DNA of 64,000 nucleotides from contig VEMX01000003.1 of NCBI GenBank assembly GCA_009711805.1, positions 1 through 64,000 on the forward strand, written 5' to 3'. This stretch comes from Balneolaceae bacterium (lineage in GTDB: Bacteria > Bacteroidota > Rhodothermia > Balneolales > Balneolaceae). This document shows positions 6,234 through 33,398 of this stretch, in pieces (the first letter of the stretch is position 1; every line of letters begins with the position of its first letter). Both the position numbers and the translations under genes were made by a program. The notes below the pieces were generated by a model. The model was not told the DNA's origin, did no database searches, and saw only the letters and a program-made list of their open reading frames with translations.

Positions 6234-9200
6234 TTATGATATTGTATTTTTGATTACGTTTTGGGCATCGTAGTGTTCCCGAACATATTTTGCTGCTGTT
6301 TGGGCGGCCTGTTTATATTTCTTATGATGTTTCATAAACTTGCCTATTGACTGGTACAATGCATTGGTAGTGAAGTCTCCGATGGTAACTCCCGGCTTTT
6401 CGTCAAAACGTTTTATAAATGTATCTGAGTAGGTTCCTTTAGTCGTTAATACCGGGGTTTTGCCTGCCAGCACATCCAGCAATATGCCGGAAAGTTTATT
6501 ACCGAAATGCTCCGGTTCATATGGAAGCAGAACCGCAGAGCTTCGTTGTATCAATCCATCGTATGAATATTCCGGATCATCTTTCTCAATAATATGCACC
6601 CGATCTCCAGCCAGTTTTCTGAACCTCTCCTGGTAAGCTTCGTGCATTAAACCGGTATATACGGTTAACCTGTAGTTTGTGGATTTACCCTGAAGTTTTA
6701 GTACCAATTCAAGCATCAACCGCACTCCCTGCACGTCTCTTCCACTGCTGATATAAAGGAATTCTTCCATTTCTCTTTTGTGTGAATCCTTTTCAACATC
6801 GAGCATAGCAGACTTCACCATACAGCCAACGGCTTTTGGAATATAGTTTAGTTTTTGGGCGTACATTTTGGTGAGAGATTCCGGTGCACAGCTAATCTGA
6901 AGATTCGGTTGAAATACCGATGCATACTCCAACAGTTGCTCTTCCATACGGTCGAGAGTTTCATCAGCTTTAGCGAAACGATTTGTCAATGCTTCCTGAA
7001 AGCATATCCTCATCTCAACCGCCGGTTGAAACGGTAATTCTTTATACCAGTCTAACACTCCCTGAAGGTTATTAATACCGGTTGTGTGCATTACCACTTT
7101 ATCACCCGGTTGTATCTTCTCAGATAAATGTGTAGTCAATTCCTCATACGTAATCCGGTTCGATTCCTTAATACCCTGTATCACATTTTCCTGGAAGCGG
7201 TATGGAGATTGTGTGAGTACCGGAAGTACTTTCTGTCCCGGTAATAATGATTCATCAAAAGCCCGATGAGTTAGCAGGGTGAATTTTTGGGGACTTTCTT
7301 CAAAATATTTTACCAGCTCTTTTGCGTAGGTATAGTGGTGACCGTTCTGGCTGTGTAAGCCGGCATCCAGTACCCATATATTTCCAGTTTCCGCTTTCTT
7401 TTCAGAAACTGTATTTTTCCCTGAAAAGCTATCGGGCCAAATGTCCATAATGCCCCGAAAGTTGTTGTGCTTAGTCCTCAACAGGTAAGAAGAATAAGTC
7501 TGCTTCTTATCTTTTGTTTTCTGGTGATCCAGACTACGCACATAATTGTGGTTTAACCTCGAATGAGGAGTATAAATCTGTTTGTTCATGTCCGGATCAA
7601 GTCCAAGTAATCTGCAGCTCAACTCTTTACCGCCGTGGCCAAAGAGAATATAATCCCCCCATCCACCTACTTGGTAAAATGCTTTTGCACTATACACTGC
7701 ATTTCCTTCAAGCAGTGTTACTGCAGGACAAATTTCATCTCCCATACTGTAGTGCCACGGATCATCAGCCGGATCATCCGAGTAATATACTCCCCTGGAT
7801 ACCAGTATATCGCGTGCTTCGTGTTCTTTAATATGCGCTTCGATCATTCCTCCATCCGGGATGCCATCATCATCCACAAACAGTAATAATTCTCCTTTGG
7901 CAAATACGGTACCCATATTCCGGGCCAGGTATGCCCCGGAATTTCCTTTCATCTTCACATAAGTATCTATATAGGGCATCAGGCGTTCAAACTCTGCATC
8001 GGCTTTACCATTGTTCACAAAAATAAGCTCGCCTATACCATCCAACTGTTCACTTAACCGTTTAAAGTTCTCTACTGATTTCTCCTTGAACTTATTACTG
8101 ATTAAAACGGCAGATACTTTGGGTTGATTAATTTCATTAATGTATTTCACGCTGGAGAACCAATACTTATATAGTGCTCGCTTATGTCCCCAGTTCTTGC
8201 TTTCAAGATCCTTAAACATCTCCCGGCTATTCCCCTCATCAACAGAAAGCTGATATTCGGGGATCAATAACAATGCATGCACCTGAATAAAAAATGCCAC
8301 ATTATCGGTTGGTTCTTCTTTCAGGCGTTCCTCTGTTTCAATCAATACTTGTTGAAGCAGTCTGTTGTCAAAATCTAAGGAGGAGAATCTGTTTATAAAG
8401 GTCATAATTTTTTCGGCCCGCTGGGGGTTTAGCGGTTCATTCCAAAAGCTATCTCCAAATATCTTAGCCTTAGTATCCGGCGTACTCACTTCCTCGCTGC
8501 TTTCCGAATGTTGAGCGGTATGATTTTCTTCAGTCTCACTTTCAATACCCAGCAATCCATTTACAATTTCTTGGTTTGGGCTTGCTGAAAAACTGTTACT
8601 GATAATATTTTTCTCTGCCTCATTTAGTACAAGATTGTTGCGTAGTGCTGTCAATCCAAAACGGCATTCAATTTCAGGCAGTACCTCAGGGTTTGTGTGA
8701 AGAACCTGCAATAACTGTGCTTCATCCCTTCCAACTGCATAAGAACTCACATCCTTTAATAACAACCATGCTTCCACAGTACGAACCATCAGCCATTTCT
8801 GGAAATCGGTTTGTACACTGGTCTTGTCCTGGACCTTAACAGGCAGCAGGAAGGGGCGGTCGGCATGCATATTCTCCTGCCCCAAATTGGTTGTTTCCAT
8901 CAGGTCCTGCATAATTTGAACCGCCTGTTGCCGTTTGCCAAGGGCGTTCATCATCCGCGCAAGGGTAAAGGCTACGGGGAGGCTGCATCCTTCCTGATTA
9001 TATATTCGGATCAGCGCCTGTGCAGCACTTAACATTAATAACACTCTTTGATTGGGGTCTAACCCTGCGGATGTTTCTGCGGCACATATATAGTCCAGGG
9101 CACGCAGGTAATCTTCATTCTCTTTGTTTTGGGATGCATTAAACCACCCCAGTGATTTTTCTGATGTCCAGGGCAAAGACTGCAAATATTTTCTCCAGCT

Positions 9201-12200
9201 TTGTTCTTCCGGCTCTTCAACTGCAACCTTTTGGTTAAACAACAATCCTTCGTTTCTGAGCTCTTCAGCTGTCTCTGCTTTCAACGCTACCAGGTTCATT
9301 CGGTATGGGTCAGGCATTCCCTCACCTTCATACTCTACGAGTAGCTCAAAATCAGTTATATATTCATAAAATGTATACTCTAGCTCTCTCAGGTATTCAG
9401 CGGTCTGCTGCCATTCTTGTGCATCTTCGCCCTTTGCAATAATGATAACCGGGCTTTCATCCTTCAAATAAGTTTCAGCTCCCTGTAGTAACCGGTACTC
9501 GTGACCATTAACATCAATCTTAAACAAATTGATGTTGGGCTTATTCATATGCTGCCACCAAGCATCGAAGGTAGTAGCAGAGATTTGTGCCTCTCCTGCA
9601 TCATCTATAAGGTTAAACTCGGGCGTCTGGTTTAATGTGAAACCTGTTTCGGAAGTTTCATCAGAAAGCCCCTTGTTTATCACTTTAAGCTGTTTAACAT
9701 TGTTTTCAACCTGGCTTTGTTGTAAATGTTGGCTTGTTTCTGCCCAGGGCTCAAACGCATACACCTTTCCCTCTTCTCCTACAGCTTCTGCCATTGGCAG
9801 TGCAAATACTCCGAAACCAGCGCCGGCATCCACTACTTTCATGCCCGGTTGCAGGTACTTTCTGGCAAAATCCAGTTCTGTGTCAAGCCAGCTGCCCTGC
9901 TCCAGCAGTACATAGTTGGTAAGTATATTGAGGTCTTGGGGCACACTTACCGAAATACCGTCTGTAGTTGATATAATATGTGTTGGGGTTTTCTTTTCGG
10001 TAGTTGTGTTTGTCTGCGGGGGAGTATCATCTCTCTCTTCTATTTCTATTGTGCCAAGTGCATTCTGTACTTGTGCTTCCACAGATTCTCTCACATTTTC
10101 TATTTCCTGTGTATCAATACTATCTGTACTTTCTGCCACGGAACCCTGATCCGTCTTTTTATCCATCAGGTATTCTTCTCCCGCTGTTTGTATTTCAATA
10201 TGCTCTTGCCATTCATCTTCAACTAAACTCTCTTCATATCCGTGTACTCTCTGCTTCCACATTTCCCGGAATGCAGATGCCAGGTTTTTTCCAAACCTCT
10301 CTCCATTATATAGGGGCGAGTTTGCCACTTTATCTCTCATTCCAGTCCGCATTTTTGCCAGGCTCTCTACATCAGATGCAAGCTCAACGGCTTTTTGTAT
10401 ATAAGTATCCCAGTTATCCGCTACCAAGTTTTCGAAACCGGCATTAGCCAAATGAGTTGCGGCATGCCGTCCGGCAAAGGTAGGTCCCGGCAAACTGACC
10501 ACCGGCACTCCCATCCACAAAGCTTCGCAGGTAGTTAACCCACCTGAATAAGGCCAGGGATCTAATGCTATATCCACCTTATTATAGGCATCCAACAATA
10601 CATCATGGGTAGACTCTCCTTCAAACATCAAACGATCGCCGCTTATACCCTGCAATTCCATCTGTTCTACAATGCGGTCGGTAAACATTTTGGTGCCATA
10701 CTGTTTGCTCTTCAGGAACAAGCGGCTGTTGGGCACCTGATTCATAATTTCGGCCCAGCGGCTAAATAATTCCTTATTCACTTTGGTAGGGTTATTAAAA
10801 CAACCAAAGGTTATATAGCCATTTTCTTTGGCGGGCAATGCTTTTACATCTGGTGTATAATCTGGCGCCAAAAAGCAGATATAATCATCTGGAAGACGTA
10901 CCAGTTTTTCGGTATAAAATTCTTCTTCACCGGCGGGAGTTTCATGCCAATCGGTGAGCAGGTAGTCAACACAATCCAATCCTGTGGTATTAAACAATCC
11001 TCCCACCCATTTCACTACTATAGGTGCGGGATTCAGAGTCACCATCTGCAGACGGTTGTCTTCGGAGTGTCCCGACAGCTCTACTAAAATATCAACATTA
11101 TCCCCACGAATAACCCGTGCAATAACCTCATTATCGTAACCCATAACGGATCTCCATATCAGGGCCCGGTTGCTTATACGGCGGGTAAGCTGATCGATAA
11201 TATTATTGGTGGTATAACAGTACACCTCAACTTGATCTTTCGGGAGGTGCTCGAGAGCTTTGGTAATCATCCAGCCTACCGGATGCTGCCTGAAACCTCC
11301 GGAGATAAAACCAATTTTTAGTTTTTTGTCTTTCTTTTTGTTGTGGGGAACTGGTCGGGGCTCGGCTTTCTTTTCTGCAAACCGCGCATCCCATTTACGG
11401 TGTTCGTTAAAAATTTCTTCTTTGGTGCGTTTGGGATTATAATGCAGTCCCATCAGGTAATTAGAATACGCCTCAATTAAATCGGGCTGCTTATCAATTG
11501 CTTCCTGGTAGTTTTTCTCCGACTCATCAAATCGTCCCATCTCCTGCAGGCACAGGGCATAGTTCACCTGCACACCGGCCACTCTTGGGTACATATTCAT
11601 TACTTGCTTATACAACTCAATGGCGTCTTCGTAGCGTCCCTCACTTTTATATATTTCTGCCAGCCCTACATGTGCGCCCAAATGCTTTTCTTCAAATCCG
11701 AGTATAGCATTCAGGTTTTCTTTGGCTTCATCAAACCGTTTAAGTTTTTGCAGTATAGTTGCCTTCTCAGCATAAGCCTCCAAGTAGGATTCATCAATCT
11801 GAATGGCAATATCAAATAACTCCAAAGCCTTTCTCAGGTCACCCTGATCCTTATATATAGCAGCAATTCTAAAAGCTACTCCCGAACTTTTTGGATCTAA
11901 CTGATTAGCCTTTTGGTAACATTTCAATGCCTCATCAAGTCTTGCCTCAGCCCTGTAAACAGATCCCAGATTCAGCCATGCTTTAAAAAAATCTTCTTTC
12001 TTGTTGATTGCCTGCTTTGCAAAGTCTTCAGCCGGGCCAAACTTCCCTTGCTGAAAAAAAGCTACAGATAGTAAATGAAGGGTTTCTGACTCTTCAGAGC
12101 CTTTCTCGATCGCTCTTTTCAGGTATTTTTCTGCCTTCTCCCATTCCTGTTTTTGAAGTTGAGCTACTCCCAGGTAATGATAGGTTAGCCATGAGGATTG

Positions 12201-12299
12201 CTTCCGCTGTATTAAACGATTTAATGTTCGAATGGCCTTATCCGGATTGGGTTGCTTCTGGTTTAACAAGGCCTGGGCTTGGGCTAGTTCGGTATTCAA
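6234..12299 (-). CDS. Giant multidomain glycosyltransferase/methyltransferase
   Basis: 2021 residues read as at least five parts. TPR repeats fill about 1-290. An OGT/SPINDLY-like GT41 domain spans about 325-690, with GGFRQHPVG holding the His matching the OGT active-site His, FNNPTKVN, and the [23 protein letters not shown] donor-site block. An FkbM-type methyltransferase spans about 785-1005 ([17 protein letters not shown] loop; [15 protein letters not shown]). A helical region follows to about 1390. A GT2-like domain lies at about 1394-1600 ([15 protein letters not shown], Asp-rich metal site), and a GT4-like domain at about 1640-2021. The start is TTG with a stop five codons upstream; the next in-frame Met is at about 234. 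Location beside flagellin suggests O-glycosylation and glycan elongation/methylation of flagellin, which is inferred. Confidence 0.88.
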
Positions 12300-22427: not shown

Positions 22428-22943
22428 TTATATCTCCTGGTTTACCGCAACACCTGTTGAAATTCCAGATCGCTTTCCATCTGATACATAATGAGCATTC
22501 TTTTCATCATGGATGCTATACAGTGAATGCATCATTTTGGCATTCCTGTTCATTGCAAATTCAAGTAACTGCAAAATCTGGTTGTGTTTCCGCTGTAGCT
22601 GTTTTGTATTGTTGGTCAGCTTTCTGTGCCATTTATCAATTTCTGTGGCCCAATTAGGGAATAGGTTCTTCAGTGCTACAAGCCTGACTCCTTCTTCTTC
22701 CTGTTCTTTTTCATCAAACAGTGCAGACAACTCCTCAATAAACTGTTTTTCATGCTCCCTATATCGTTCCGACAGTGAAGTATGTACCTCAGAGAGTTCT
22801 TCAATTCTACTCGCATCCGAGGCTATTACAGCATCGATCTGCTTTTCCATGATTCCAATTATCTGTTTCGAGCTATTATCCAACAGCTCTACAATTTCTG
22901 CTATATCCTGTAAAGACGAGTTCTTATCCTTTGTATTATTCAT
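22428..22943 (-). CDS. flgN: FlgN-like export chaperone for FlgK/FlgL
   Basis: 171 residues, helical and acidic, with the FlgN-type layout: a long N-terminal coiled coil (IAEIVELLDNSSKQIIGIMEKQ, split here for length) and a short C-terminal Tyr-Xaa-Gly tail before flgK. FlgN binds FlgK and FlgL in the cytoplasm and delivers them to the export gate. Position between flgJ and flgK supports the call. Its start overlaps the end of flgJ by eight bases. Confidence 0.78.
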   Translation of the reverse strand: MNNTKDKNSSLQDIAEIVELLDNSSKQIIGIMEKQIDAVIASDASRIEELSEVHTSLSERYREHEKQFIEELSALFDEKEQEEEGVRLVALKNLFPNWATEIDKWHRKLTNNTKQLQRKHNQILQLLEFAMNRNAKMMHSLYSIHDEKNAHYVSDGKRSGISTGVAVNQEI

Positions 22944-23271
22944 TGGAATGGTCCTGTATTTGTGTGTTACTATTTGAGGAGCCTGATCGCTGGTTCCAGT
23001 ATTGGGTTACCAAATCAGCCATCCCCAATTTCCTTTGTGAAGCAAGCTCACTTGCAAGAGCGTCCGTTACATGTTCCCTGTATAGGTTGCCGGAGCTTCC
23101 CATCAGGCCATTTGAATCGGACATCTTAAACGAGTTTTTGGTCATTTCTTTGACCAGGTGCCGTGCAAATATCTCTTCGAAATCATTGGCTGCTTTTTCT
23201 TTTTGCAGCTCATTCTTTCGTTGGTCGTTCACTCTTTGCTTTGCTATGTCTAAAAAAGAATCTACTTTCAT
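22936..23271 (-). CDS. flgJ: Rod-binding protein FlgJ, N-terminal type only
   Basis: 111 residues matching only the rod-binding (rod-cap) half of FlgJ: A-A-N-D-F-E-E-I-F-A-R-H-L-V-K-E-M, then a Gly/Ser loop and EHVTDALASELASQRKLG. The C-terminal muramidase domain of enteric FlgJ is absent, as in many phyla, so another enzyme must cut the peptidoglycan. It lies after flgI with about 100 bases between them. Confidence 0.85.
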   Translation of the reverse strand: MKVDSFLDIAKQRVNDQRKNELQKEKAANDFEEIFARHLVKEMTKNSFKMSDSNGLMGSSGNLYREHVTDALASELASQRKLGMADLVTQYWNQRSGSSNSNTQIQDHSNE

Positions 23272-23369: not shown

Positions 23370-24518
23370 TTACATTACAATGAGTTTTCCTCTCATCACT
23401 CCTGCCTTGTCCATTGCCTGGAAGATGGATATGATATCACGCGGGCTTAAACCCAGCGAATTCAACGAAGCGGCGAGCTGTTCTACCGTTGTTTCCGGTT
23501 TCAGCACTATAGTTTTTGCTCTTTGCTCGCTAATACCGGCTTCTGGTAAATCCAGTACCTGAGTTTCTCCTCCGCTAAATGCAGGAGGTTGACTTACCAC
23601 AGGATTTATCTGAGTTCTTACCTGTATATTTCCGTGAGAAATCATTGCATCGTCAATCACTACTTCCCCGCCGGCTACAATAGTACCTGTGCGTTCATTT
23701 ATAACCACTCTGGCCGGTGTTTCTACTTCAATTTCCTGTTCCAGGATTATACTGGTGAATACATTCATAGAACCTCTCTCCCGGAAAGCCTCGGGCCAGT
23801 CTATCTTTATCAATCCGGGATGGTGTATGCTTGCCAGTTCTTCATCGAATGTCTCATTTATCACTTCCGTAATACTTCGGGCATTTCCAAAACTCGGTTC
23901 CCGCAATACCAACCCCAGCGGTTCTTCTGTACTTAAATTAAATTCTTGATTCTTATCTACGGTAGCTCCCCCTGGTATGGTAGCTGTAAGAGATTGATTC
24001 TGGCTTATTCTCGCGCCGGTCATTTCTGCATTCACTCCGCCAGAGATTAATGCCCCCTGCGCTTTGGCCAATACTTCTTCATTATCCGGATCAAACAGAG
24101 GTGTTTGTAACAACACGCCTCCCTGTAAACTGCTGGCATCACCTAAAGATGAAACGGTTACATCAATTTCACTTCCCGCCGCATGGTAGGGAGTGATGGT
24201 AGCTGTAACCATAACGGCAGCCACATTTCGAGTCCTCAGCCGATCGGCATCCACTGTTATTCCAAAGTTCTTAAGCATGTTGGCAATAGACTGCACGGTA
24301 AATACCGCCCCCCGGCTACTTGATGAACGGTCTCCGGTACGGTCTAAACCCGTAACCAGGCCATAACCAATAAGCTCTTTTCGCTGGGCATGCTGAATCT
24401 CAACCAAATCAGAAAGACGTGTTTGAGCCTGTATATCTACAGCAGTGCACAGTATAGCCAGTACACTTATGCAGGCAATCTGAATTATGCGGACTCTGTT
24501 TGATGTATTTAGTTTCAT
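23370..24518 (-). CDS. flgI: Flagellar P-ring protein FlgI
   Basis: 382 residues with an N-terminal Sec signal ending near DIQAQ. The family core begins RLSDLVEIQHAQRKELIGYG then LVTGLDRTGD, and the C-terminus has the LNSLGLSPRDIISIFQAM block. FlgI forms the periplasmic P ring around the rod in peptidoglycan. It follows flgH by 15 bases. Confidence 0.96.
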   Translation of the reverse strand: MKLNTSNRVRIIQIACISVLAILCTAVDIQAQTRLSDLVEIQHAQRKELIGYGLVTGLDRTGDRSSSSRGAVFTVQSIANMLKNFGITVDADRLRTRNVAAVMVTATITPYHAAGSEIDVTVSSLGDASSLQGGVLLQTPLFDPDNEEVLAKAQGALISGGVNAEMTGARISQNQSLTATIPGGATVDKNQEFNLSTEEPLGLVLREPSFGNARSITEVINETFDEELASIHHPGLIKIDWPEAFRERGSMNVFTSIILEQEIEVETPARVVINERTGTIVAGGEVVIDDAMISHGNIQVRTQINPVVSQPPAFSGGETQVLDLPEAGISEQRAKTIVLKPETTVEQLAASLNSLGLSPRDIISIFQAMDKAGVMRGKLIVM

Positions 24519-24533
24519 GGAATTATCCTTTTA

Positions 24534-25163
24534 TCACTTGTTCAATTGACGCATAATTACTGCAGCACCCAGCCCTAACGATATTCCTGTAAAAACTACT
24601 TTCTTCAGGAATCCGCGGTCTTGTTTCTTTTTAAAGATGCCACCCTTTTTCTGGTAGCTGATGTCGGCATTGGCGATGCGATACGAAAGTACCTGGTTTC
24701 GGCTGTCTACATCATTTTGGCGAACTGTTCCGGCCAGCGACATTTCATGGACTTCTCCATTTACTTCTGTTTGCCGGCTGCCCTCCACTATCAGGTCGCC
24801 ACGGTCGGTTACTTCAACAATTTGTACACTGATAAAACCCTCGAGCAGCTGCCGTTGGCGAGACAGGTTTTCCCGGTCCGATCCATAATTAACAGTGGCG
24901 CCGGAACCAAAGGTAGGTTCAAAGGGCAGGAAGTTTCCCGAAAGAGAACCTGAAGCCTGTCCATCGGCCCGAGAGCTTAATTTTGAATCAGAAGTTGAAC
25001 TTCCGGATGTACTCTCTTTAAGAATTACGGTTATAATATCTCCCACCTGATTCGCCTTCACATCTTTATAAAGTGAGTTTTGAGCTACAGCCGTACCTGA
25101 AATAAACAGGGCCGTAAATAGTGTTATTAATAAAATTTGGTGTGTTATTGTGTTTTTAGCCAT
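24534..25163 (-). CDS. flgH: Flagellar L-ring protein FlgH, without lipobox
   Basis: 209 residues. The FlgH core is recognisable (NSLYKDVKANQVGDIITVIL; then RQRQLLEGFISVQIVEV; then GDLIVEGSRQTEVNGE). The N-terminus is a plain Sec signal peptide ending near TAVAQ. No Cys is present there, so it cannot be lipidated like enteric FlgH. An extra C-terminal segment carries basic residues and a hydrophobic stretch (VVFTGISLGLGAAVIM), possibly a membrane anchor. The start overlaps flgA by 19 bases. FlgH forms the outer-membrane L ring, so the host has an outer membrane. Confidence 0.93.
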   Translation of the reverse strand: MAKNTITHQILLITLFTALFISGTAVAQNSLYKDVKANQVGDIITVILKESTSGSSTSDSKLSSRADGQASGSLSGNFLPFEPTFGSGATVNYGSDRENLSRQRQLLEGFISVQIVEVTDRGDLIVEGSRQTEVNGEVHEMSLAGTVRQNDVDSRNQVLSYRIANADISYQKKGGIFKKKQDRGFLKKVVFTGISLGLGAAVIMRQLNK

Positions 25164-25852
25164 TCTACTACTCCCGGGCCTATAATTTTGCCCAGATATT
25201 TTTTTCGTGTTTCTTTACAATAAATCTTGACTTCCTCATTCCTGGAACCGCTCTGACGAGACTCACACTTGAGTTCAATCTGTATACCCTGTTCATTAAA
25301 AATGAGCTCTACTTCCTCTCCTGCTTTAACCAAATAAGGTAAACTGACTTCGGAAGAATAAACCGGCTCTCCGGCATTAACCATTCTTCGCAGTGTTTTA
25401 CCTTCTAATTTCCTGATGTCTGATATTGGTTTATCCCGGCTGACCCTTACGGGGACCCAGCGTATTCCAAAATCTTCAGCCTTCAGCACGGTACCACTGA
25501 TTAATCGTTCGTGCAGAACCGGAAGCTTTTGTTGTGCTTCGATAAGCAATTGGATTTCAACATCATGAACTTTTCCATTTTCCCGTCTATAAATCACCTC
25601 AAAGGTGGAATACTCCTTTAAAACACCTTTCAGTTCAACTGACTTTACATGTTCGGGATCCGATTTAAGTAAACTACCTGGAATCCATCGTGCCGAAATA
25701 TTAAATCGGTATTGCTCAGGGCTGTAGTGGTTTTCCACAGACTCCCGGGCCTTTTCAATGATCACTTCTTTAGTATCATTGAAAGGCCGCACAGGAGTGT
25801 GGGGGTCAACCAACAACAAAGCGTTTATACATATGAGCAATGCCAAAAACAC
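25145..25852 (-). CDS. flgA: P-ring assembly chaperone FlgA
   Basis: 235 residues with a short hydrophobic N-terminus fitting a signal peptide or anchor. The C-terminal half is a SAF-type domain: LISGTVLKAEDFGIRWVPV, then LEGKTLRRMVNAGEPVYSSE, then VKAGEEVELIF. FlgA helps FlgI assemble into the P ring in the periplasm. The flgG-flgA-flgH-flgI order supports the assignment. Confidence 0.88.
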   Translation of the reverse strand: MFLALLICINALLLVDPHTPVRPFNDTKEVIIEKARESVENHYSPEQYRFNISARWIPGSLLKSDPEHVKSVELKGVLKEYSTFEVIYRRENGKVHDVEIQLLIEAQQKLPVLHERLISGTVLKAEDFGIRWVPVRVSRDKPISDIRKLEGKTLRRMVNAGEPVYSSEVSLPYLVKAGEEVELIFNEQGIQIELKCESRQSGSRNEEVKIYCKETRKKYLGKIIGPGVVEWLKTQ

Positions 25853-31066: not shown

Positions 31067-32595
31067 TACTGAAGAAATTTTTTGGAAAAACGATTGAAGC
31101 TGCTAAGAAAAGCGCCCAACAAATGTATGGGGATGATTTCTTATTGATCGAATCTTCGGAGGGAGATGGTGAAAATAAAGAAGCTAAAATCACGATTGTT
31201 TCGGACGCCAATAAAGGATCAGGACAAGAAAAGACCAGGCCTGGATCAACATCACCTAAAGCAAAAACATCTATGGCTGCAGAAGGCGTTAAGTTTGAGC
31301 GTTCTTCTCAACAACCTAAAGCATCGGCAAACAATGGTACCAGTTCTAAATTAAAGTCGCTCCGCAAGATTGCAGAAAAACAGGTAGAAGCTAAAGAAAA
31401 AGCGGGAACGTTTGGTCTTAACCTTCATAAAGCACAGGCCAAGCAAAACGGATCTATAAAGAAAGAATTGAATGAACAACCAAAAGAACCTGCTTCAGGT
31501 ACTGTTTACAGCCGCGCACTTGTCCGCCCCAAAAACAACACTTCAAACAACTCTCAGGAGTTAACATCAACAGTGGCACAAGAGGCAAAGCCAGGATCAA
31601 ATGGTCGTACTGCTCAACCCAAAAAGAGTACAGGAAAGAAATTTATTACCCATTTTAAAGAATCAAGAATAAATGAGCAGCAAACGAATGATATCCCTCC
31701 TGTTTCGCGTTCTTCAAGAAGAGACCAGCGGGAGATTACGGCGCTACATAAACGCTTCGATAAAGTAGAAGCACTTTTGGATTCAGCATTAATTTCTGCC
31801 AATCTTGATTATGCGTCGCATCCTGCATTTCAGCAATTGGTACATACCGGTATCAATACAAGTGTTATTGCAGGCTGGTTCAGTAAAATAATAGAAGAGG
31901 GAATAGATCCTTACGATCAAAGCGAGATTTTTATGTCAAAGCTGGCAGCCATAATCCGTGACGCACTGGGGACAAAAGCTTCAGAAGAACCGCAGAAGTT
32001 TATGCTATTTGCGGGCCCTTCAGGTGCGGGAAAAACACATCTGATTATGAAATTGAGCCAGCATCCCGATTTTATGCTCAATAAAAAAATAGCCGTTGTT
32101 TCGGTATACCCTCAAGACAAGAGCGCCAGTAATTACTATACCATTCTTGAAGCGTATTGCAACGATCAAAACCTCCCTCACTTTAAAGTGAAGAATAACC
32201 TTGATGTGACCAAACAGATGGAGCAATGGAAAGAGTTTGATCATGTATTAATAGATACTCCTTCAATCAGTATAGAACAAGACAACTCATTCCGGGAATT
32301 CTGGAAAGTACGTCAATTGCTTTCTCCCCTTGCCCCTCTTGAAGTTCACTATGTGGTGAATGCTTCTATGAATCGGTTTTACTTCCGAAACTCATCAGCT
32401 AAACACCACCCCTTACAGCCCGATTATGTAGCTATTACTCACTTGGATGAAGTTTCGCAATGGGGAGCTGTAATCCCCTTTTTGCAAGAAATGGGCTGCA
32501 ACGCCCGATATATCAGTTCTGGCAAGTCGATGCCAAACAGTTTAAATGAATTTGACCCACAATGGTTTGCACACAAAGTACTACAGGAAATTTGA
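31063..32595 (+). CDS. flhF: FlhF-like SRP-family GTPase with altered G motifs
   Basis: 510 residues. The N-terminus LKKFFGKTIEAAKKSAQQMYG matches FlhF. A long basic, low-complexity stretch (about 45-210) follows, then the NG domain. The P-loop is GPSGAGKTH (318-326). The DTAG motif is replaced by DTPS (398-401) and TKLD by THLD (459-462), so nucleotide binding or hydrolysis may be altered. FlhF normally sets flagellar position and number. Its place between flhA and flhG is the standard one. Confidence 0.88.
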   Translation: MILKKFFGKTIEAAKKSAQQMYGDDFLLIESSEGDGENKEAKITIVSDANKGSGQEKTRPGSTSPKAKTSMAAEGVKFERSSQQPKASANNGTSSKLKSLRKIAEKQVEAKEKAGTFGLNLHKAQAKQNGSIKKELNEQPKEPASGTVYSRALVRPKNNTSNNSQELTSTVAQEAKPGSNGRTAQPKKSTGKKFITHFKESRINEQQTNDIPPVSRSSRRDQREITALHKRFDKVEALLDSALISANLDYASHPAFQQLVHTGINTSVIAGWFSKIIEEGIDPYDQSEIFMSKLAAIIRDALGTKASEEPQKFMLFAGPSGAGKTHLIMKLSQHPDFMLNKKIAVVSVYPQDKSASNYYTILEAYCNDQNLPHFKVKNNLDVTKQMEQWKEFDHVLIDTPSISIEQDNSFREFWKVRQLLSPLAPLEVHYVVNASMNRFYFRNSSAKHHPLQPDYVAITHLDEVSQWGAVIPFLQEMGCNARYISSGKSMPNSLNEFDPQWFAHKVLQEI

Positions 32596-32600
32596 ATCTC

Positions 32601-33398
32601 ATGAATAACCCAACTCACATATCTCAGCCATTCGTATTTGCCGTTATTAGCGGTAAAGGCGGAGTGGGCAAAAGCATGGCCAGTATCAATACTGCATCAA
32701 TGCTCAACAAAATGGGCTATAAGGTAGCCATCATTGATGCCGATTTAGGCCTTGCCAATTGTGCTACCCTCTTTAATGAAGCCGTGCATAACACTGTAAG
32801 CCGATGGATAAACGGAGATTGCATCCTGGAAGATTTACCACAGGATTGTTCCGGTATTACCCTGGTTACAGGTGCCAACAGCCCCGAAGAGAATAAATTT
32901 GATACCAGCATTTTTATGGATGCCCTGGATCAGGTAGCTGAGTACCTGAAACAAGATCACGATTTTATCATCATAGACACTCCGGCTGGCATAGGTGAAA
33001 TGGGCTTATGGGCCCTTGATGCCGCCGGTGCTTCAATTCTTGTGCTCGTAGACGAGCCCGCAGCTATTTCGGATGTCTATCGTCTGTGTAAATATGTTTT
33101 TAATATAGATCCAGAGTATCGCTTTGCCAGTATTGTAAATTTTGCGGAAAGCGAAGAAACGGCAGAAAGCACCTTTAAACGCTTTAATACAATTCTAAAC
33201 TATTTTCTTAAAAAACAGACAGCCTATTTTGGCTTTATACCATCAAGCGAGAGTGTCCGGAAAGCCGTAGCTAAGCAACATACATTGCTACAGGCCAACC
33301 CGGGACATGAAATATTAACCGAGTTTGAATTTATTTCGCAGAACATTATTGCTTACGCCAATAATCAAGAGGAACTCGTTACAAAGACTGTACACTAA
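32601..33398 (+). CDS. flhG: FlhG/FleN, MinD-like ATPase
   Basis: 265 residues. Deviant Walker A KGGVGKSMASINTA, then VAIIDADLGLANC and FIIIDTPAGIGE are the MinD/FlhG motifs. FlhG controls flagellar number together with FlhF. The N-terminus is short and I see no DQAxxLR activation helix, which many FlhG proteins carry to stimulate FlhF. The ATG at 32601 follows the flhF stop by five bases. Confidence 0.92.
   Translation: MNNPTHISQPFVFAVISGKGGVGKSMASINTASMLNKMGYKVAIIDADLGLANCATLFNEAVHNTVSRWINGDCILEDLPQDCSGITLVTGANSPEENKFDTSIFMDALDQVAEYLKQDHDFIIIDTPAGIGEMGLWALDAAGASILVLVDEPAAISDVYRLCKYVFNIDPEYRFASIVNFAESEETAESTFKRFNTILNYFLKKQTAYFGFIPSSESVRKAVAKQHTLLQANPGHEILTEFEFISQNIIAYANNQEELVTKTVH

Follow-up and report, generated by a model that had tools for sequence, protein, structure and literature searches.

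The flagellar L ring is described as made of a lipoprotein, FlgH, in two reports (PMC8298488, PMC11673145). According to the first, the N-terminal chain of Salmonella FlgH lies as a third layer over the barrel, with mature Ile30-Phe31 seated in an outer pocket of FlgI and Leu44-Phe45 in an inner one (PMC8298488). In the second, the acyl group provides a hydrophobic band that encircles the ring, and it reaches into the space between adjacent FlgH subunits (PMC11673145). A review extends the lipoprotein description to Salinibacter, whose L ring is said to be formed by FlgH lipoprotein (PMC1586193). Our literature search, which had most subscription papers outside its scope and covered others in part, brought up neither an FlgH without lipid nor one with a C-terminal membrane helix.

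Here we characterize FlgH in a window of 64,000 nucleotides of genomic DNA from a Balneolaceae bacterium. The gene overlaps flgA by 19 bases, is followed by flgI and belongs to a long flagellar cluster (Table 1). The closest named relatives by FlgH are Balneolaceae/Balneolales records (58–64% identity); NCBI places the Balneolaceae in Balneolota, and we take “the class” and “the phylum” below to be Rhodothermia and Bacteroidota of GTDB. Assignment to FlgH follows from Pfam PF02107 (E 3.1e-34, residues 25–190; 118.5 bits against a cut-off of 27), and no other FlgH was found in the 4.08 Mb genome. The AlphaFold2 (AF2) model is of low confidence (mean pLDDT 60.3, compared with 57.8 for a Pleionea comparator, both too low to position the C-terminus), and its best Foldseek matches are 8z5n (2.8e-7) and 7cbl (6.8e-7). 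Alignment to 7cbl with VIA-align gave Z 13.3 over 96 residues, consistent with the L-ring fold; coverage is mainly of residues 34–175, so the C-terminal tail stands outside the fold comparison. All 13 NCBIfam FlgH models match the window protein and those of L098, L099 and L100, in every case below their cut-offs (best score for the window protein, 105.6 bits against 280), and automatic naming by these models may therefore fail. Two further features of the neighbourhood were recorded: a FlgJ-like ORF of 111 aa (22936–23271, minus strand) in which only the rod-binding part was matched (Pfam Rod-binding, 9e-6), without a muramidase domain, and a 2021-aa ORF adjoining the flagellar cluster (6234–12299, minus strand) that by eye resembles a fusion of TPR and glycosyltransferase/methyltransferase parts, for which a flagellin-modifying role is a guess.

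Table 1 Coordinates of flgH, its subregions and its gene neighbours in the window
Feature	Position	Strand	Basis
flgH, 209 aa, ATG start, L-ring protein without lipidation site	24534..25163	-	Pfam, Foldseek, VIA-align
Sec-type signal peptide, residues 1-27, predicted cut between AVA and QN	25083..25163	-	Sequence; no Cys; site judged by eye
Leu31-Tyr32, counterpart of Salmonella mature Leu44-Phe45	25068..25073	-	Structural alignment; pocket in PMC8298488
Basic stretch, residues 172-188, 8 Lys/Arg and 1 Asp	24600..24650	-	Sequence count
Tail core, residues 189-204, 16 uncharged, mostly apolar, containing Gly/Ala	24552..24599	-	Sequence; AF2 helix
flgI, P-ring protein, outer pocket altered	23370..24518	-	Pfam PF02119 2.7e-107; pocket columns
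flgA	25145-25852		flgH neighbour

To place this protein, FlgH sequences were compared across five groups: the class, other Bacteroidota, Pseudomonadota, Halanaerobiaeota and Verrucomicrobiota. Of 244 class genomes, 87 have FlgH, giving 85 distinct sequences, 84 of them complete; a draw of 394 genomes from the phylum likewise gave 87 with FlgH. The set for the other classes of the phylum comprises 49 distinct sequences from 50 genomes. The outgroup sets hold 31 Pseudomonadota, 12 Halanaerobiaeota and 12 Verrucomicrobiota sequences. The Pseudomonadota set consists of the best 30 of 106 matching loci (one identical to L102) plus L103, and lipid-less FlgH of that phylum could be under-sampled in it. 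Within the family and order of the window genome, only 22 of 58 genomes carry FlgH (its own included, some being incomplete), so flagella may have been lost repeatedly. A search of a plasmid collection returned 34 FlgH records, every one less than 60% identical.

The first-pass annotation had described this FlgH as lacking the lipidation Cys behind a plain Sec-type signal, and both observations hold: the protein contains no Cys at all, and its signal, read by eye, is of the plain type. A corrected upstream start supplying a lipobox had been named as a finding that would overturn this description, as had homologues in the phylum showing a Cys. The frame upstream of flgH is open for 17 codons containing neither Cys nor an ATG, GTG or TTG, so no corrected start yields a lipobox and that possibility is ruled out. 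The description likewise withstands comparison across the phylum, where homologues show no Cys at a conserved place and only a few sporadic lipobox-like strings. What did not survive is the view of the missing Cys as the oddity, since its absence is the rule in all sampled groups outside Pseudomonadota. Among Pseudomonadota (best 30 of 106 plus L103), a Cys follows a hydrophobic run 47–54 residues before a conserved Gly-Asp pair in 30 of 31 sequences, and a strict lipobox pattern fits 25 of 31; in the one sequence without this spacing, L182, the chain is longer and SGC lies further upstream. Cysteines following a hydrophobic run occur in FlgH of 12/85 class, 15/49 other Bacteroidota, 6/12 Halanaerobiaeota and 5/12 Verrucomicrobiota sequences, to be compared with 8/84, 8/49, 4/12 and 2/12, respectively, in the FlgI signals of the same loci, used as a control. 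The strict pattern was found once in FlgH of the class (L032), six times in other Bacteroidota (L002, L079, L080, L081, L087 and L089), once in Halanaerobiaeota (L201) and twice in Verrucomicrobiota (L204 and L211), against 0, 1, 1 and 0 in the FlgI control, which leaves other Bacteroidota (6 versus 1) somewhat above control. In both Bacteroidota sets these strings lie 19–29 residues before Gly-Asp, as against the 47–54 of Pseudomonadota (best 30 of 106 plus L103). A few of the strict-pattern FlgH lipoboxes outside Pseudomonadota could be real. The most lipobox-like is that of L089 (minus strand), with VVGC before LAQF. L089 is also the best candidate for a lipoprotein FlgH among the non-Pseudomonadota sequences, whereas the strict pattern does not fit the related L090 and L093.

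Judged from these sequences, Pseudomonadota (again as the best 30 of 106 plus L103) are the only one of the five sampled groups to carry a lipobox in a set position, and lipid anchoring is therefore unlikely to be essential to the L ring. At the level of the class, with no sequence identified as that of Salinibacter, the FlgH proteins do not support the lipoprotein statement of the review (PMC1586193). Loss of the lipoprotein pathway was considered as a cause and ruled out: Lgt (2.2e-67) and LspA (1.4e-31) are present in the genome, so the cell can make lipoproteins. Nor did the cluster offer a substitute-anchor lipoprotein gene. Two lipobox-scan hits were obtained in the window, neither of them credible, one (24621–24953, plus strand) lying antisense within flgH and the other (32712–33398, plus strand) starting inside a MinD/FlhG-like ORF (32562–33398). 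FlgH here is best explained as a normal L-ring protein whose structure has been reduced and which carries no lipid.

The reduction is at the N-terminus. Structural alignment sets window residue 34 on Salmonella residue 68, so the Leu-Tyr pair of the window protein matches Salmonella Leu44-Phe45 (Table 1). The mature protein begins at Gln28 (cut placed by eye), three residues before that docking pair, and the lipid-bearing outer-layer chain is therefore missing; the enteric-type chain of ~40 residues before Leu-Phe is absent. From the end of the signal core to Gly-Asp, the median distance is 54 residues in Pseudomonadota (best 30 of 106 plus L103), 28 in Halanaerobiaeota, 28.5 in Verrucomicrobiota, 25 in other Bacteroidota and 20–22 in subsets of the class, with 22 in the window protein. 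The lipid-less FlgH proteins of Halanaerobiaeota (L101, L191–L201) and Verrucomicrobiota (L104, L202–L212) often show Ser-Leu/Ile-Trp near the mature N-terminus, which by eye is perhaps the counterpart of Salmonella Ile30-Phe31; a regular expression for it caught only 2/12 and 4/12 sequences, respectively.

At the other end of the protein, the basic and hydrophobic C-terminal extension of the first-pass annotation was recovered, the basic stretch being followed directly by the apolar core (Table 1). Counted from the conserved Gly184 (included) to the end, the window FlgH has 26 residues and E. coli FlgH 13. The same span measures 19–36 residues in 84/84 complete FlgH of the class, exactly 11 in 49/49 distinct sequences of other Bacteroidota, 11–14 in Pseudomonadota (best 30 of 106 plus L103), 11–18 in Halanaerobiaeota and 13 in Verrucomicrobiota. 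A basic stretch with a short apolar segment is present in every one of the 84 and absent in the other groups sampled, where the longest uncharged run near the C-terminus is 2–5 residues (up to 10 in Halanaerobiaeota). Class tails have a median of 15–16 apolar residues after the basic stretch and a Gly+Ala content of 38–48% by class subset (31% in the window protein); on the Eisenberg scale, their mean hydrophobicity is 0.78–0.79 and their moment 0.07–0.13, that is, non-amphipathic. AF2 predicts, at low confidence (pLDDT about 44–53), a 22-residue helix at residues 186–207 of the window tail, compared with a C-terminal helix of 6 residues in the Pleionea comparator. Over 15 independent close pairs (a pooled set of 409 pairs was saturated and set aside), dN/dS was 0.199 in the tail and 0.080 in the core, so the tail evolves ~2.5 times faster and yet, by this measure, is under purifying selection. 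The tail is not a chance feature, because all 84 complete proteins of the class carry it and its dN/dS is 0.20. The FlgH proteins of the class form a single clade (SH-aLRT 99, in a tree built by a quick method and carrying a long-branch warning), so a single gain of the tail suffices. What sets the class apart in the alignments is therefore its C-terminal tail, together with an outer-layer chain that has been lost entirely, and not the missing Cys.

Changes are also seen in FlgI, which provides the pocket for the missing chain. Of 213 loci, 212 yielded FlgI, and the comparison took in 84 sequences from the class. Eighty-two FlgI columns are hydrophobic in three outgroup phyla; in the class, five of these are mostly non-hydrophobic, among them two from the outer pocket, 117 (hydrophobic in 49% of the class) and 156 (23%). 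The chance of drawing at least two of the three qualifying outer-pocket columns is 0.009, a figure uncorrected for shared ancestry and for the post hoc choice of columns. A further outer column, 110, is hydrophobic in 8% of the class and variable in outgroups; in Pseudomonadota (best 30 of 106 plus L103), columns 156, 117 and 110 are each hydrophobic in 100%. Of the six inner-pocket columns, 22, 46, 50 and 103 remain at 100% in the class, 18 at 75% and 104 at 13%. Since inner columns 104 and 18 have changed and outer columns 17 and 114 are still hydrophobic, the contrast between the pockets is real but partial. In other Bacteroidota, with their slightly longer FlgH chain, column 117 is hydrophobic in 78% and column 156 in 90%. 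Separately, every compared sequence from the other four groups has a hydrophobic residue in the FlgI column at Salmonella mature residue 265, as against 0/84 in the class.

Taken with these observations, the suggestion of the first-pass annotation that the L ring may be anchored in another way fits the composition and conservation of the tail and the changed FlgI pocket, and falls short of proof. We lean, tentatively and at somewhat less than even confidence, towards C-terminal helices, in place of lipids, as what holds the L ring in the outer membrane. FlgH would cross the inner membrane by Sec and be released by signal peptidase I, its tail in most cases lacking the length and hydrophobicity needed to lodge there; at ring assembly the tails would enter the outer membrane as adjacent helices, 26 per ring if Salmonella symmetry holds, and form a hydrophobic belt in the role that acyl chains have in Salmonella. 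Lys/Arg of the basic stretch would lie at the membrane interface, and the length of the tail would suit a thin outer membrane. The full architecture, a two-layer, lipid-free barrel carried by a collar of C-terminal transmembrane alpha-helices, we put forward more hesitantly still, as a possibility that we would not yet call probable.

The insertion propensities of the tails bear on this proposal. On an unweighted, crude translocon scale, the best 19-residue sum has a median of +3.87 for tails of Balneolales and +1.91 for those of the other class members, compared with −2.11 to +0.43 for nine inner-membrane segments of the window’s own proteins, so most tails should pass the inner membrane; some overlap these controls (minimum −0.42). 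With that overlap and on that scale, FlgH of the window and the class has a C-terminal apolar segment of weak inner-membrane insertion tendency. The outer-membrane helices of Wza and VirB10 similarly have apparent insertion energies above zero in a published analysis (PMC11845990). The tails do not resemble the amphipathic, pore-lining helices of these proteins in mean moment; a low moment would fit a helix lining no pore, because barrel and rod would fill the middle. Against anchoring by the tail, the strongest point is that FlgH is both tailless and lipid-less in other Bacteroidota, Halanaerobiaeota and Verrucomicrobiota, from which it follows that an L ring needs neither feature to exist. 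Also counting against it are the partial FlgI contrast, the low AF2 confidence for the tail, the overlap with controls and the signal peptides of FlgH, which do not surpass the tails in hydrophobicity on this scale (best-16 median 0.77 versus 0.01 and 1.18), as well as small-xxx-small spacing in the tails that is only slightly above shuffled sequences (2.82 versus 2.37).

The same tailless relatives lend themselves to the main rival, which we judge unlikely yet the most serious: that the tail is a packing element between FlgH subunits that stiffens the ring and is no membrane anchor, its helix filling the inter-subunit hydrophobic gap that the acyl chain fills in Salmonella, with the ring held by the barrel surface as presumably in tailless Bacteroidota. 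The position of the Salmonella acyl group between neighbouring subunits (PMC11673145) and the abundance of small residues (Gly+Ala 31–48% by group) speak for such packing. An almost uniformly apolar core of low moment, which offers no polar face for the ring surface, and the many basic residues flanking it weigh on the other side.

Two further readings seem improbable. A pre-assembly tether to the inner membrane, in which the tail serves as a stop-transfer or assembly signal and has no outer-membrane role, is suggested by the presence of an apolar segment in a Sec substrate and by FlgH signal peptides that do not exceed the tails in hydrophobicity on the same scale; it is opposed by the best-19 values, most tails being shorter and weaker than the inner-membrane controls, and by a basic flank that would be periplasmic, contrary to the positive-inside rule. 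About equally improbable is a tolerated, lineage-specific extension of no special role, with the ring placed as in lipid-less groups: tailless FlgH is common and the tail evolves faster than the core, but all 84 complete proteins keep a tail of similar length and composition, and its dN/dS is well below 1. Very improbable is a cleaved C-terminal sorting signal of the CTERM kind, alike in outline (motif, apolar segment, terminal basic residues), since many class tails end without basic residues and no CTERM or other named C-terminal domain matched in NCBIfam (three relatives up to E 10, the window protein up to 0.001) or Pfam (all four up to E 10).

Anchoring by C-terminal helices, if true, would mean that, within a machine that is widely conserved, protein has taken the place of a lipid anchor, and would set another type of alpha-helical ring in the outer membrane alongside Wza and VirB10; the class tail and the altered FlgI pocket together give a concrete alternative for holding and sealing the bushing of a rotating shaft in the outer membrane. 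Like the FlgH tail, the helices of Wza and VirB10 are C-terminal, apolar, of low inner-membrane insertion tendency and end a ring-forming envelope protein; unlike it, they are amphipathic and form pores, and the likeness is offered as analogy, with no homology claimed (PMC11845990). FlgH of other Bacteroidota, Halanaerobiaeota and Verrucomicrobiota shares with the window protein a plain signal peptide and no fixed-place lipobox, but ends in a short, often aromatic segment, and the last two groups keep a longer N-terminal chain. With FlgH of Salmonella and E. coli (PDB 7cbl, 7cgo, 7nvg), the window protein has in common the family, the flgI neighbour, the core fold and a Leu-aromatic pair before the core; it differs in having no lipidated Cys, no outer-layer chain and no counterpart of Ile30-Phe31, and in adding a basic and apolar tail.
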